From: a bacterium
GTDB taxonomy: Bacteria; UBA8248
DNA: 64,000 bases
Assembly: GCA_022828125.1 (NCBI GenBank)
Contig: JAJEJD010000019.1
Coordinates: 142,875-206,874 of the forward strand
Direction of reading: 5' to 3'
Position 1 is the first letter of the stretch. The number at the start of each line of letters is the position of its first letter. The translations under genes and the position numbers were made by a program. Positions 36,469-54,201 of the stretch are shown here, one piece after another. The notes beneath the pieces are model-generated. The model was not told the origin of the DNA. It worked only from the letters and a program-made list of their open reading frames with translations, and ran no database searches.

Positions 36469-36485
36469 TAGATTTTGACGGGGGG

Positions 36486-36502
36486 TTATGCGTAGCGCAT
36501 AA
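36486..36502. promoter_or_regulatory. palindrome upstream of the ATPase-PIN module
   Basis: TTATGCGTAGCGCATAA: seven-base arms around TAG, 18 bases after the amidohydrolase stop and 68 bases before the ATPase start. There is no T-run, so it is better read as a possible operator than as a terminator. Confidence 0.35.
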
Positions 36503-36569
36503 TTCCCGGCGAATCGGGTAAAGAGGCTACCGATCTACGATACCCTTCGTTCGCCTTGGAGAAAGTGTG

Positions 36570-37991
36570 ATGATCCGGCACGTCAACCTCAAGAATTTCA
36601 AGGCGTGGCGCGAGCTCGACATAGAGCTCGGCCCGAGGATCACCGGTCTGTTCGGAACCAACAGTTCGGGCAAGAGCAGCCTGATCCAGTTTCTCCTCAT
36701 GCTGAAGGAGACGAAGAACAACCCGGACAGGAACATCGTTCTCGATTTCGGAAAATCCGGCGGGGTGATCAACCTGGGTGGTTTCGGCGACGTCATTCAT
36801 CGAAACGACAAAAACCTGAAGCTGGAATGGGAGTTGTCCTGGGATGGGCTGGAAGAACCTTGGATCGCAACCGACCCACACACAGGTGAAGATGAGATCC
36901 GATTCAACTATAAAGAACTCGTCATACAAGCAGTGGTGGAAATGACGAATCCAGAGGAATCGAAGTCTCTGAAAACGCAGTCCATTCATTACGCCATAAA
37001 AGACACCGCGACCGGCGAGATGACGATTTTCGGTATCGAGCCAAACCCTGATCGGGATAACGGCTTTCAGTTTACAACGGGGCAAAAAAGCGAGTCGAGT
37101 TTTGATACCCAGCAACATACGGAAAATATTTTTTCAGGAGAATTCCCCGGTCCCATCAAAACCCATCTTTTTCCTTTCCAAGCCAGATCCCATTTGCCAC
37201 TAAAAGATCAAAGAGACCCGCTGAGCGATCTGGAAGCCGATTACGAAAAACTGATGGACAGGATTTATTATCTTGGACCACTACGAGACTTCCCACACCG
37301 GCAATACAACTGGAGCGGAGGCAGCCCTTCAGACGTGGGGACACGAGGCGAATTGACGATCAACGCCATCCTAGCCTCTTCGGAGAGAGACAACGCTCTT
37401 CAACTGAAGGAAGAGAGCAGAAAACGCTCCTTTCAGGAAGTGGTCGCCATGCGGCTCAAGGAAATGGGCCTCATCCATTCCTTCTCGGTGGCCGAGGTCG
37501 CCAAGGGTTCCAACATCTATCAGGCCAAAGTATCGGTGGACAAGAAAAGTCCGAAAGTGCTCTTGACGGACGTGGGCTTCGGCGTATCCCAGGTTCTTCC
37601 CGTCATCGTCCTGCTGAACCATGTTCCGGAAGGCTCTACCGTCATCCTGGAACAACCGGAAATTCACTTACACCCCGAAGTGCAGAGCGGTTTGGCGGAC
37701 GCCATCGTGGGGATCGCCGAAACGCGGGACTTGCAGGTGATCATCGAAAGCCACAGCGAACACCTATTGCGACGGCTCCAGAGAAGGGTGGCGGATGAAA
37801 CGATTCAGGCGGACCTGGTGAAACTCTACTTCGTCTCGCAGGAAAGCGGCGAAGCACGCCTGGCGGACATCGGATTGAACGAATACGGAGAGATAGAGAA
37901 CTGGCCCGAGCATTTCTTCGGCGATGAGATGGAGGAAATCGCAGAGACCAGAAAAGCCGCTATCGAACGCAAGATGAAAGTCGAGGAATGA
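36570..37991 (+). CDS. RecF/SMC-like AAA ATPase with C-terminal DUF3696
   Basis: 473-residue ABC/SMC-type ATPase. The N-terminus MIRHVNLKNFKAW is the standard RecF/OLD start. Walker A is GTNSSGKS at 29-36, the signature-like GVSQVLPV at 338-345, Walker B TVILEQPEIHLHP at 357-369, and the switch His is in IIESHSEHLLRRL at 391-403. The C-terminal ~416-460 (LVKLYFVSQESGEARLADIGLNEYGEIENWP) is the DUF3696 region. ATG 36570 is preferred (GGAG eight bases upstream) to GTG 36567. It overlaps the PIN-like gene by four bases. Base composition is visibly less GC-rich than its neighbours. Such ATPases commonly act as sensors for attached nucleases in defence. Confidence 0.85.
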   Translation: MIRHVNLKNFKAWRELDIELGPRITGLFGTNSSGKSSLIQFLLMLKETKNNPDRNIVLDFGKSGGVINLGGFGDVIHRNDKNLKLEWELSWDGLEEPWIATDPHTGEDEIRFNYKELVIQAVVEMTNPEESKSLKTQSIHYAIKDTATGEMTIFGIEPNPDRDNGFQFTTGQKSESSFDTQQHTENIFSGEFPGPIKTHLFPFQARSHLPLKDQRDPLSDLEADYEKLMDRIYYLGPLRDFPHRQYNWSGGSPSDVGTRGELTINAILASSERDNALQLKEESRKRSFQEVVAMRLKEMGLIHSFSVAEVAKGSNIYQAKVSVDKKSPKVLLTDVGFGVSQVLPVIVLLNHVPEGSTVILEQPEIHLHPEVQSGLADAIVGIAETRDLQVIIESHSEHLLRRLQRRVADETIQADLVKLYFVSQESGEARLADIGLNEYGEIENWPEHFFGDEMEEIAETRKAAIERKMKVEE

Positions 37992-38476
37992 CGGACAGGA
38001 TTGTCGTTGATACGAATGTCTTGATTGTGGCGAACGAAAGAGGCAATCCCCCGGCGGATCCCGAATGCGAACGCACGTGCATCAAAATGCTGGAGGGAGC
38101 GGCCAAAGGGAAACAGGTCGTCCTACTCGATGGATCCAATCGCATCATGGATGAATACAGAACTTCTCGTAGTTATAGCGGAGTGCCCGCTGGTAATGCG
38201 TTTTTTAAGTATCTGCATGACTATCAGCATTCCACCAAGAAAGTCATTCACATATCAATCCAAGAGACGCCGGACGAAGACGGAGGATTCGCCAATCTTC
38301 CCGCGAATACTTTCGACCGGGATGACCGAAAATTCCTGGCCGTCGCCGAGGCCGGAAACGGGCGAGTCGTGAACGCCACGGACTCGGACTGGTCGGAACA
38401 CGCCGACTTCATCGACTGCCTCGGCGTACGCGTGATTGAACTGTGTCCGCAATGCCTGAAGCAAGCAGATAGTTAG
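37988..38476 (+). CDS. PIN-like nuclease coupled to the DUF3696 ATPase
   Basis: 162 residues with a PIN-type pattern. RIVVDTNVLIVAN gives Asp8 on the first strand, DEYRTS (55-60) a mid acidic residue, FDRDDRKFLAVAEAGN (109-124) the paired Asp after a helix cap, and VVNATDSDWSEH (127-138) the last acidic cluster on a strand. These match the four acidic positions of metal-dependent PIN RNases. The start ATG overlaps the ATPase stop (ATGA). It is longer than a typical VapC and has no small antitoxin beside it, so the ATPase is likely its regulator. A short CPQC motif lies at the C-terminus. Confidence 0.75.
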   Translation: MTDRIVVDTNVLIVANERGNPPADPECERTCIKMLEGAAKGKQVVLLDGSNRIMDEYRTSRSYSGVPAGNAFFKYLHDYQHSTKKVIHISIQETPDEDGGFANLPANTFDRDDRKFLAVAEAGNGRVVNATDSDWSEHADFIDCLGVRVIELCPQCLKQADS

Positions 38477-38937
38477 TCAACAATCCCTACTTCCCTACTC
38501 AGCAACCACTCTCTCCGCCCGCGATTGACCACGCAATTCCCCGCATTTGCGCGTACCGCGCATCGGGTGGTTTTCGCTATCCTCCTGCGCCGAGGCTCGC
38601 CGCAGAGACCGGCTCGATAGTCCCGAACGATGGGCGCGCCGAGAGCCGTATGAGGAGGTTGGACGATGCTGCGAAGCGCTGATGATAGCCTGACGTCGAA
38701 GATTGATTTCCGGGCGAAGCACCGCCTCGAAACCCCTCATGAATTACCGAAAATTTCGATAAATATCGATAAATTCACGGGGTTTTTCAATAAATTTCCG
38801 AAAAGAAATATCTCGATAAACGATTCTAATACAAATGGTTATCATGCAGATATGAGCGCTGATCACTCAGATTCGGCAGTAAGAAAAGTTTTCCGGCGCC
38901 TGAGCATTTGCCCGCATTTGCGATGAATCGAGCGCGA
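38477..38937. other. gene-free stretch with AT-rich repeat
   Basis: No credible gene. It holds the AT-rich repeat D1 (38743-38811) and copies of a CCCCGCATTTGCG-like motif at 38539-38551 and 38910-38922 on either side of it. The short frame starting at 38666 reads through the repeat and is not supported. Confidence 0.6.
38743..38811. repeat. AT-rich dispersed repeat, copy D1
   Basis: Contains TTTCGATAAATATCGATAA, then ACGGGGTTTTTCAATAAATTTC. The reverse complement is found at 44144-44216. It stands out sharply from the GC-rich surroundings, and both copies are flanked by CCGCATTTGC-type motifs. Confidence 0.7.
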
Positions 38938-43883: not shown

Positions 43884-44760
43884 AAACTTATAATTCATTA
43901 CATTCCATATGGTTATGGCTCACAATTAAAGTTTTATCTCGCTTGGGTTGCTCTGCGTCGACCCATCGAAATCTCCCGTGTGATCATCGCCGGTTCCGCC
44001 GGTTCCGAATCCCTGCGGCCCGCAGGATTCGCGAATCCGGGGGAATTCCGCCCCCGCAACTCCCCGCATTTGCCGTCATGGCGGGGCCGGCCGAACGTGG
44101 CAGAATTCCCCTGCGCCCGGATTCCGCGGCGTCAAAACCTAAGAATTTAATTTTTAGAAATTTATCGAAAAACCCCGTTAATTTATCGGTATTTATCGAA
44201 TTTTTCGGAAATTCCTTATCCGCGGACAAAGCGACCGGCTCCGCCTTGATACCCGCGTTCTCCTCTTCTCCCGTCACCGCAAATGCGGGGAAATGCGGCG
44301 GCCGGCCAGGTCGATTCCGATTGATGGAGAAGGGGCCGGGCCTCCCCGTGACGGGGAAATCCGGCCGCACGCCAACCCTTCAGTATACTCACGCGCCCTT
44401 CGTCTCCCGGCGCCGCAATTGCAGGCAAATGCGTGCGACGGCGTCGACCGGGGAGGGAATGCGGTTTTCATCGTCATTCCGGCATCGAGTCAGAATGAGG
44501 AGCGAATGAACGCCGGGATCCGGGACGGATGAATTCATCGAACCGGGCGGTCACGCCGATCCACCCCTGCGAATCACTTGTCGAGACGACCGTAAGAGAC
44601 GGTTTGCGGGGTGCGGCCGCGCCATGGACAGGAACTCTACGTGGCACGGTCCGGAAACGTCGGAGGTTCGAAGCGCGTGACGCTGCCCCGGCGCGGCGAG
44701 TTCTCCGCCGATGAGGCGGGGAAGCGGGCGGGCGGCGTCATCGACCGCATCAGGCAGGGT
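43884..44760. other. long gene-free region between EamA gene and reductase operon
   Basis: 877 bases without a convincing gene. It contains the AT-rich repeat D2 (44144-44216) and CCGCATTTGC/GCAAATGCGG motifs at 44062-44076, 44277-44298 and around 44425. At 44470-44525 it has a CATTCCGGC/GCCGGGATCC-type segment of the kind seen in other gaps. Frames read here on either strand are low-complexity and cross the repeats. Confidence 0.55.
44144..44216. repeat. AT-rich dispersed repeat, copy D2
   Basis: Reverse-complement copy of the element at 38743-38811 (TTTATCGAAAAACCCCGTTAA, TTTATCGGTATTTATCGAA). The copies differ at several positions, so they are not recent duplicates. Confidence 0.7.
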
Positions 44761-52187: not shown

Positions 52188-52421
52188 ATGGTCGAATCCA
52201 CGATTACCTCGAAGGGCCAGACGACGCTGCCAAAGCCGGTACGCGATGCCCTCGGCGTAGGGCCGGGCGACCGCGTGCGCTATATCATCATTGACGATGA
52301 GGTGCGCATCATCCCGATGCGGCCCATCGCCCGGCTGTTCGGCATGCTCAAATACGAAGGCCCCCCAAAAACGCTCGAAGATATGGAGCGCGCTATCGCC
52401 GAGGGGGCGAGTGAGGAGTGA
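52188..52421 (+). CDS. AbrB/MazE-type antitoxin
   Basis: 77-residue SpoVT/AbrB swapped-hairpin DNA-binding protein, residues 1-~45: VESTITSKGQTTLPKPVRDALGVGPGDRVRYIIIDDEVRIIPM. The C-terminal part ARLFGMLKYEGPPKTLEDMERAIAEGA is the typical toxin-binding segment of antitoxins paired with PIN toxins. A perfect AGGAGG lies seven bases before ATG. It overlaps the toxin start by four bases. Confidence 0.88.
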   Translation: MVESTITSKGQTTLPKPVRDALGVGPGDRVRYIIIDDEVRIIPMRPIARLFGMLKYEGPPKTLEDMERAIAEGASEE

Positions 52422-52813
52422 TCGCGCTCGACACGAACATCCTCGTCCGATATCTGGTCAAGGATGATGCGGCCCAGACCGAAGCGGCCCGAGGTCTGAT
52501 GGCGGGGCTGACTGCCGAGAGGCCCGGCTTTATTTGCCGCGAGGTGACTGTCGAACTCGTCTGGGTGCTCGAGCGAACCTATCGGTTATCCCGAGAACGA
52601 ATCGCAGAAGTGTTGGAAGAACTCATCGCCAGCGTGGAACTCGAAATCGAGGCGGCGGACGACGTGGCCCGCGCCGCTTTCCGCTACCGAAGCGGCGGTG
52701 CCGGTTTTTCCGACCTCATGATCGCAGCCGCCGCGAGCCGAAGCGGCGCACACCCACTTTATACCTTCGACAGACGAGCGGCGCAGTTGGAGGGGGTGGA
52801 GTTGGTGGGATGA
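52418..52813 (+). CDS. VapC-type PIN-domain toxin
   Basis: 131-residue ribonuclease toxin. The PIN acidic residues are visible in MIALDTNILVRYL (Asp5), CREVTVELVWVLER (Glu near 46), GFSDLMIAAAA (Asp near 98) and YTFDRRAAQL (Asp near 117). GTG 52418 overlaps the antitoxin stop. The length and all motifs are intact, so the pair is probably active. It sits between the damaged hipBA locus and the TIR gene. Confidence 0.88.
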   Translation: MIALDTNILVRYLVKDDAAQTEAARGLMAGLTAERPGFICREVTVELVWVLERTYRLSRERIAEVLEELIASVELEIEAADDVARAAFRYRSGGAGFSDLMIAAAASRSGAHPLYTFDRRAAQLEGVELVG

Positions 52814-53049
52814 ATCCTGGTTGAGGGAGGGTGGGGTTGCGCTTCTTGAATAACACCTGCTCGCTGAAACCTCTAATAGACGTTATTCCTAAAGATTATC
52901 TTTACGTTTACTTTGTGCAATGACCTAAAATGCAATATTATTATGTTGTAACTGGCAGCCCATCATTCAATAGACACTTTACATTCAAGACAGATTTACT
53001 TCCTTTCACTCCATACATTGCACGACGTCCCAGAAGCGAGATTAAACAA

Positions 53050-54201
53050 ATGGATCAAGCAACGAAACCGTATGAAGAATTGTTGAATATTGCTGAAAGT
53101 TTGGATCAATTAGCGGAGCGCGGCCACGAGACGAATATAACGGAACCCCTTGGGCGGCTAGAAGAAGCAGCTACTAAAATTGGGGAAGCCTGGAGTGGTT
53201 CATGGCTAGGCTACCACGCCAATGTATACTACAAAGGTTTGAAACCTCCACCACCGGGCGAGCATTTCAGCCAAGAATGGGGTCTTTTGGACACATATTT
53301 TGATGGTAGTTCTGACAACTGGATTGAATTCGAAGCGAAAGACATAAAATCCGCAATTTACGAACGCGCAAAACACCCTGATCTGAAGCCTGCTGATAAG
53401 TTGAAGGAAGAAGCAACTCAACAATTCGAAACCGAACAATCTAATGTAATTTCCATACTAGAAATAGAAATTAACAAATCAAGTGATCCTTTTCTGGTGC
53501 AACAAAAAGAAAAAATAGAAAATATGTCAATTTTGACAGAAGGAGAGGTAATCAAACGCTTGAGACCAAAAACGCCACAGATAATGACTAGAGACACCAT
53601 TGTAATTGGTCAAGGTTATTGGACACCACCGCATCATTCCGTTCTCTCTAAAGTCCTCTCATTCCAACGCACGATCAATGCAGTCGCAATGCTGTCAAAG
53701 AGAACGACACAGGTCAGATCACATCTCCTACGCCAGAAGCATCAACGTCGACGAACTGAACTTGAAGGCACGAACGTGTTTATCGGACACGGTCGTTCAC
53801 CGATTTGGCGTGAACTAAAGGACTTCATAGAAGACCGTTTGGGCTTGCCCGTAGACGAATTCAACCGGGTTCCTGTTGCTGGCGTAACCAACACAGCCCG
53901 CCTGTCGGAAATGATGGATGCCGCAGCTATCGCTTTTCTTGTGATGACTGGAGAGGATGAGCAGCCCGATGGAAACGTGCGGGCTCGTATGAACGTGATC
54001 CACGAAGCTGGACTTTTTCAAGGACGGCTGGGATTTACGCGTGCAATTATTTTGCTGGAAGAAGGCTGCGAAAAATTCAGCAATATTGAAGGTCTTGGAC
54101 AAATACGATTTTCAAAAGGCAGCATCAAAGCCGCATTCGAGGAGATAAGAGAAGTTCTTGAGCGCGAGGGGATTCTCACGCCACACCAACAAGCAAAGTG
54201 A
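53050..54201 (+). CDS. TIR-like effector (PF10137/Cap12-type) with unknown N-terminal domain
   Basis: 383-residue protein. The C-terminal ~242-371 is the TIR-like domain of predicted nucleotide-binding (Cap12/Pycsar-TIR) proteins: NVFIGHGRSPIWRELKDFIED is the first strand-loop-helix, AAAIAFLVMTGEDEQ the central strand, and RARMNVIHEAGLFQGRLG holds the presumed NADase catalytic Glu319. The N-terminal ~1-240 includes GEAWSGSWLGYHANVYYKGLKPPPPGEHFSQEWG, a conserved-looking sensor or adaptor segment I cannot name. The gene is strikingly AT-rich compared with its neighbours, a sign of transfer. ATG 53050 is chosen by pattern; ATG 52930 would add 40 unfamiliar residues, and neither has a good ribosome site. 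No cyclase, STING or Thoeris partner is adjacent. Confidence 0.8.
   Translation: MDQATKPYEELLNIAESLDQLAERGHETNITEPLGRLEEAATKIGEAWSGSWLGYHANVYYKGLKPPPPGEHFSQEWGLLDTYFDGSSDNWIEFEAKDIKSAIYERAKHPDLKPADKLKEEATQQFETEQSNVISILEIEINKSSDPFLVQQKEKIENMSILTEGEVIKRLRPKTPQIMTRDTIVIGQGYWTPPHHSVLSKVLSFQRTINAVAMLSKRTTQVRSHLLRQKHQRRRTELEGTNVFIGHGRSPIWRELKDFIEDRLGLPVDEFNRVPVAGVTNTARLSEMMDAAAIAFLVMTGEDEQPDGNVRARMNVIHEAGLFQGRLGFTRAIILLEEGCEKFSNIEGLGQIRFSKGSIKAAFEEIREVLEREGILTPHQQAK

Follow-up and report, generated by a model that had tools for sequence, protein, structure and literature searches.

In PARIS, a hexamer of the ATPase AriA sequesters the tRNase AriB until a phage protein triggers its release and tRNA is cut (PMC12409363). 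The HECs, or Hma-embedded candidates, are described in PMC12988326 and PMC10855318, and several of them, including HEC-06, are active against viruses (PMC12988326). HEC-03 is represented in PADLOC-DB 2.0.0 by models PDLC04147 and PDLC04148, dedicated to its components HEC-03A and HEC-03B. Our literature searches for DUF3696 with PIN, for NsnB, or for PIN with RNA ligase in defence returned nothing on point.

Here we describe an ATPase gene and a PIN-like nuclease gene at positions 36570-38476 of a 64,000-nucleotide stretch of bacterial DNA, hereafter called the window. The original prediction could not match this exact pairing to any named system, a statement that has to be corrected: the ATPase matches the HEC-03B model at E 7.4e-176 (residues 1-471, profile positions 1-455 of 458) and the small protein matches HEC-03A at E 5.3e-45 (residues 5-155, profile positions 3-153 of 159). 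Judging by these profile matches, the pair is a chromosomal copy of HEC-03, a catalogued candidate anti-phage system. As the pair itself is already catalogued, the value added here is its association with an RNA ligase, the third gene in 13 of 43 loci; also beyond the PADLOC catalogue is a DUF4268 gene that follows the pair in three close relatives.

The gene pair and its two proteins

The ATPase ORF (36570-37991, forward strand) begins with ATG, with an in-frame GTG at 36567, and encodes 473 amino acids; the PIN-like ORF (37988-38476, forward strand) encodes 162. The two overlap by four nucleotides (ATGA), as had been described. A GGAG at 36558-36561 (forward strand), identical in five copies from the genus, probably serves the ATPase gene as its ribosome-binding site. 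Further upstream lies a putative sigma-70-like promoter (36475-36503, forward strand; TTGACG-17-CATAAT, 10 of 12 positions), the hexamers of which are likewise identical in the five genus copies; as three promoter-like sites were observed where shuffled sequences would give 1.7, the promoter call is weak by itself. The palindrome said to precede the pair was recovered at 36486-36502 as TTATGCGTAGCGCATAA, the only one in the window, where 0.09 were expected with up to two mismatches. It overlaps the -10 hexamer, is kept in G007, G008 and both G009 copies save for the loop and the outermost bases, and was annotated, as TTATGCGtagCGCATAA, as a candidate operator. It may indeed be an operator; shared ancestry could also explain its conservation.

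The lower GC content claimed for the pair was also found, at 0.53-0.56 over 36-39 kb against 0.62-0.65 in the adjoining kilobases. Upstream are two TauE-type permease genes and an Amidohydro_2 gene, and downstream, on the opposite strand, are genes for a methyladenine glycosylase, a TenA-like protein, a zinc-ribbon protein and EPSP synthase. Between the PIN gene and the glycosylase gene the only noteworthy ORF is at 38666-38926, and a family search with it gave no match. With metabolic genes directly on either side, the window copy does not lie in a defence island. In a second low-GC patch of the window (GC 0.455 at 53-54 kb), a gene at 52930-54201 (forward strand) encodes a 423-residue protein with a C-terminal TIR domain of the CAP12/Pycsar type (Pfam PF10137, E 9e-20) and weak PADLOC matches to PDC-S35 and PycTIR, possibly another defence gene; just upstream, at 52418-52813 (forward strand), is a gene for a VapC-type PIN protein (PF01850, E 8e-15).

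HEC-03B was correctly recognised from the outset as an SMC/RecF-like ATPase. Its Pfam domains are AAA_15, AAA_21 (RecF/SMC/OLD-like) and DUF3696, and it has a Walker A motif GTNSSGKS at residues 29-36 (36654-36677), a Walker B-like VILEQPE at residues 358-364 (37641-37661) and, at residues 412-458 (37803-37943), the C-terminal DUF3696 domain with an NWPEHFF motif (E 9.9e-9, above the Pfam cut-off), all on the forward strand. A Foldseek search of the PDB with its predicted model, which is of low confidence (pLDDT 56) and has no long coiled coil, matched the heads of PtuA, Rad50, SMC and OLD proteins. The Walker B sequence of HEC-03B proteins is mostly hhhEQPE, and hhhEEPE in an outlying clade (33 EQ, 2 DQ, 2 EH and 4 EE), so that Gln362 of the window protein stands at the position that holds Glu in that clade. 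In ABC-type ATPases, replacement of the catalytic Walker B Glu by Gln blocks or slows hydrolysis, and on this precedent the Gln would suit an ATP-locked switch. As a hallmark of HEC-03 the residue was rejected, other DUF3696 ATPases having E, Q, N or S there. The HEC-03B of one relative (G008, locus L059, 3495-4905) was read as two pieces of 111 and 396 amino acids and may be frameshifted, either in the genome or in the assembly.

The PIN-type acidic residues noted in the small protein proved to be nearly invariant over 40 HEC-03A rows, with D8, N10, D48 and E56 present in all 40, D113 in 38 and D132 in 37; D8, E56, D113 and D132 follow the D-E-D-D order of PIN nucleases. C27, C31 and C153, kept in 38-39 of the 40 rows and atypical for PIN nucleases, could form a metal site or a disulfide. 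Pfam gave only a sub-threshold PIN_3 match (E 0.038, 15.2 bits against a cut-off of 27), and no Pfam PIN model scored above its cut-off, the best family member reaching E 0.0018 to PF01850. PDB sequence searches with the single protein and with a 32-member profile found no PIN match; the single match of the profile (E 4e-4, to 28 residues of a designed TIM barrel) was taken as chance. An hhalign comparison of the HEC-03A profile with the VapC-type PIN protein of the window aligned only the DTN motif. An AlphaFold2 model (7 sequences, pLDDT 67) consists of alternating strands and helices, and its top three PDB matches in Foldseek are PIN-type or PIN-like (3ix7, VapC4 in 5h4g and the PilT-N protein SSO1118), followed by SMG6, VapBC2 and FitAB. 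For this model of moderate confidence, the matches have a probability of 0.99 at an E of 4e-3 and a TM score of about 0.5, so that structure prediction agrees with the expected fold as far as the identity of the matches goes and is weak in their scores. We consider that the small protein is very probably a PIN domain, as a divergent branch of the family.

Pairing, distribution and genomic context

The PIN gene was readable in 43 loci, a set drawn from five sampled phyla and including three more distant loci; in every one of them the ATPase gene lies immediately upstream of it, on the same strand, and the DTN motif starts 7-48 nt after the ATPase stop. All 11 full-length HEC-03B matches of at least 390 bits in one sample of 398 genomes were in genomes with HEC-03A, and HEC-03B was also present in all 12 plasmid records that carry HEC-03A. 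Rare adjacency had been named as the finding that would speak against a functional pair, and the opposite is clearly the case. Distant ATPases in G092, G108 and G112 that appeared to be partnerless were rejected as exceptions: a PIN relative, missed by the genome search with PADLOC models, adjoins each of them.

Within the phylum of the window, 4 of the 18 genomes have HEC-03A, all four among the 7 genomes of its genus. For four further phyla, sampled by way of relatives titled Methylovulum, Planctomycetota, Dehalococcoidia and Latescibacterota, the counts are 12/398, 4/392, 15/400 and 5/64 genomes (1-8%), and no relative was found in 50,697 phage records or in a scan of viral contigs. This patchy presence counts against a housekeeping unit of RNA maturation or repair, made up of PIN nuclease, ATPase and sometimes ligase and unrelated to conflict, as do carriage on plasmids, a GC content below that of the flanks and the embedding in defence operons described below. 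Such a unit would agree with the metabolic genes flanking the window pair and with the ligase partner found in sister clades; on balance we judge it very improbable.

The pair was predicted to be self-contained, which is true of the window and untrue of the three nearest pair-bearing relatives, where an extra defence-candidate gene stands behind the pair. In all three (G007, G008 and G009) HEC-03A is followed by a gene for a DUF4268-type protein, and the one in G007 matches PDC-S11 (E 3e-115). The alignment of the window with G007 breaks off after 38460 and resumes at 38511, and between these points a scar of about 50 bp (38461-38510) replaces about 1.1 kb with the PDC-S11 gene in G007. Because the third gene is present in all three relatives, we read it as lost by deletion in the lineage of the window. 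Apart from its C-terminus, where the junction gives CLKQADS instead of CLK, the PIN gene of the window is intact.

In G004, which is without the pair, the glycosylase-EPSP synthase block is inverted beside the amidohydrolase, and the comparison yielded no clean empty site; its locus (L103, 3096-8483), in which the block from EamA to the glycosylase is inverted relative to the amidohydrolase as compared with the window, is a rearrangement site. An AT-rich element, TTTCGATAAATATCGATAAATTC, is located at 38739-38804 of the window. G004, G006, G008 and G009 have copies of it, 83-92% identical, close to the glycosylase gene; G009 has an additional one behind HEC-03, G004 has one near each end of the inverted block, and a similar 16-mer occurs at 44182 of the window. 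The element may be a small repeat that favours rearrangement. The G009 assembly also holds, on contig 134 (L058), a second amidohydrolase and HEC-03B copy cut by the contig end, which may be a second locus or a mixture of strains.

Several relatives lie within defence operons. The pair is found between HmaA and HmaB (L081), between HmaB and HmaC (L084), between PglX and BrxC-PglZ (L076) and beside PglXI (L068), and, together with a ligase gene, with a Ppl gene and a further ORF on one side and BrxHI on the other (L071). In L070 and L073 it lies between genes for a DUF1156-type methylase and a helicase, and an Orf5/HEC-06-like gene was also scored in L070. These loci were chosen for their defence-like neighbours and so show occurrence, not frequency. 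The embedding is an independent repeat of the observation behind the name HEC-03, and the view of the pair as a defence-system candidate is strengthened by these relatives within Hma, BREX/Pgl and methylase-helicase operons.

The same embedding, being repeated and within anti-phage operons, weighs against a toxin-antitoxin-like module, in which a PIN toxin and an ATPase antitoxin would serve stress dormancy or the maintenance of a plasmid or locus instead of phage defence. A compact two-gene operon with coupled translation, its occurrence on 12 plasmids and a palindrome overlapping the promoter, which suggests autoregulation, are all in keeping with such a module. The ATPase gene comes first, however, and the classical small antitoxin is absent, as had been remarked: no VapB-type gene adjoins the PIN gene, the gene upstream of it being that of the ATPase. 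The ATPase family moreover resembles the sensors of PARIS, Septu and Gabija, and we regard a toxin-antitoxin-like module as decidedly unlikely.

An RNA ligase in related loci

In the 13 ligase-bearing loci, the gene next after the PIN gene encodes an RNA ligase of family PF09414 (E 1e-31 to 1e-35), and it abuts the PIN gene or, usually, overlaps its end by a few bases. All 13 proteins have an invariant KxDG block (EEK-DGANLG) and FGEW, the ligase motifs being EEKLDGANLG, FGEW, EGIV and AKLV. Three of them, scanned against the PADLOC models, gave no match. On the ATPase tree the ligase is found in 10 of the 12 rows of one clade and in 3 of the 4 rows of another, which takes three changes in all, and none of 500 shuffles gave a number as low. 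The pair with ligase occurs inside different host operons (L068, L070, L071 and L073) and also outside them (L067 and L072), and for this reason the ligase looks like a partner of the pair and not of the host system. The window locus, the clade of the window (9 rows) and about two thirds of the loci are without it, and it is thus not essential.

A ligase gene beside the PIN gene suggests that the nuclease cuts RNA and leaves ends that can be ligated. A wider reading, to which we give clearly less than an even chance, is that HEC-03 forms the centre of a larger defence module of ATPase, PIN nuclease and RNA ligase, in which nuclease and resealing enzyme would share one operon. Its own repair arm would make RNA cleavage reversible or limit self-damage, and the window would carry the ligase-free form.

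PIN domains can also act on DNA, and the same defence module could be built around a DNA substrate, with an SMC-like ATPase recognising DNA ends or replication intermediates and delivering the PIN nuclease to DNA, as with the HNH nuclease of Septu or the nuclease of Mre11-Rad50. PtuA, Rad50 and SMC heads are the nearest solved folds to the ATPase model, which favours this reading, as does the location of several HEC-03 loci inside systems based on DNA methylation (Hma and BREX/Pgl). The model in question is nevertheless of low confidence and without the long coiled coil, the ligase paired with the nuclease in the 13 loci is an RNA ligase and not a DNA ligase, and the best-known PIN toxins, VapC, are RNases. 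A DNA-directed module is, in our estimation, unlikely.

Proposed mechanism and comparison with known systems

The model that we propose is that of a guard ATPase with a PIN RNase effector, similar to PARIS, which would stop translation upon infection; taken as a whole, we give it about an even chance. HEC-03B would be an ATP-bound oligomeric sensor and keeper, and HEC-03A a metal-dependent RNase bound by it and held inactive, the restraint of the nuclease by the ATPase being plausible on the analogy of PARIS. Through coupled translation the cell would make matching quantities of both. A signal of infection would alter the ATPase, upon which the PIN nuclease would become active and cut cellular RNA, most likely an RNA of translation such as tRNA. 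This would halt translation and phage growth, and the cell would pay with dormancy or death. In the sister clades, the ligase encoded by the gene overlapping the PIN gene would reseal cut RNA, and so limit accidental damage or allow recovery.

The ligase-bearing relatives turn the uncharacterised HEC-03 into a testable hypothesis of RNA cutting and resealing. If this is true, HEC-03 would join the translation-stopping systems guarded by an ATPase, such as PARIS, with the addition of a repair enzyme encoded in the operon, and would be relevant to the question of how such systems keep from killing the cell that carries them.

Among catalogued systems, HEC-03 is matched nearly end to end by both window proteins. 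Its name comes from Hma embedding, which is probably no requirement for membership: relatives L081 and L084 are inside Hma operons, whereas the window copy is free-standing beside the Amidohydro_2 and methyladenine glycosylase genes. Some relatives matched by the HEC-03 models also carry the RNA ligase that has no PADLOC match. The next-best PADLOC families for the ATPase, NsnB (E 8e-63) and PDC-M55A (E 6e-54), are clearly lower than HEC-03B.

With PARIS the window locus shares an AAA_15/AAA_21 ATPase adjoining a small nuclease, and the PADLOC AriA models match the ATPase at E 1e-28; its score with the HEC-03B model is far higher, however, DUF3696 is present, and the effector is PIN-like, whereas AriB is a Toprim tRNase. 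The predicted model of the ATPase resembles PtuA of Septu, but PtuB is an HNH nuclease and the partner here is PIN-like. Searched against the PADLOC models, the small protein matched only HEC-03A, and neither an AriB Toprim-type nor a PtuB HNH effector. Gabija consists of GajA, with a Toprim domain, and the helicase GajB, whereas the window ATPase has no Toprim match in Pfam and no adjoining helicase. A small PIN protein in a two-gene operon recalls VapBC, but its partner is a 473-residue ATPase and not a small DNA-binding antitoxin, and PIN sequence models give the protein no match above cut-off. The anticodon nuclease PrrC is set against phage-encoded RNA repair, and here too RNA cutting would be opposed by RNA ligation; there the ligase is encoded by the phage, whereas in the sister clades of HEC-03 it shares an operon with the nuclease.
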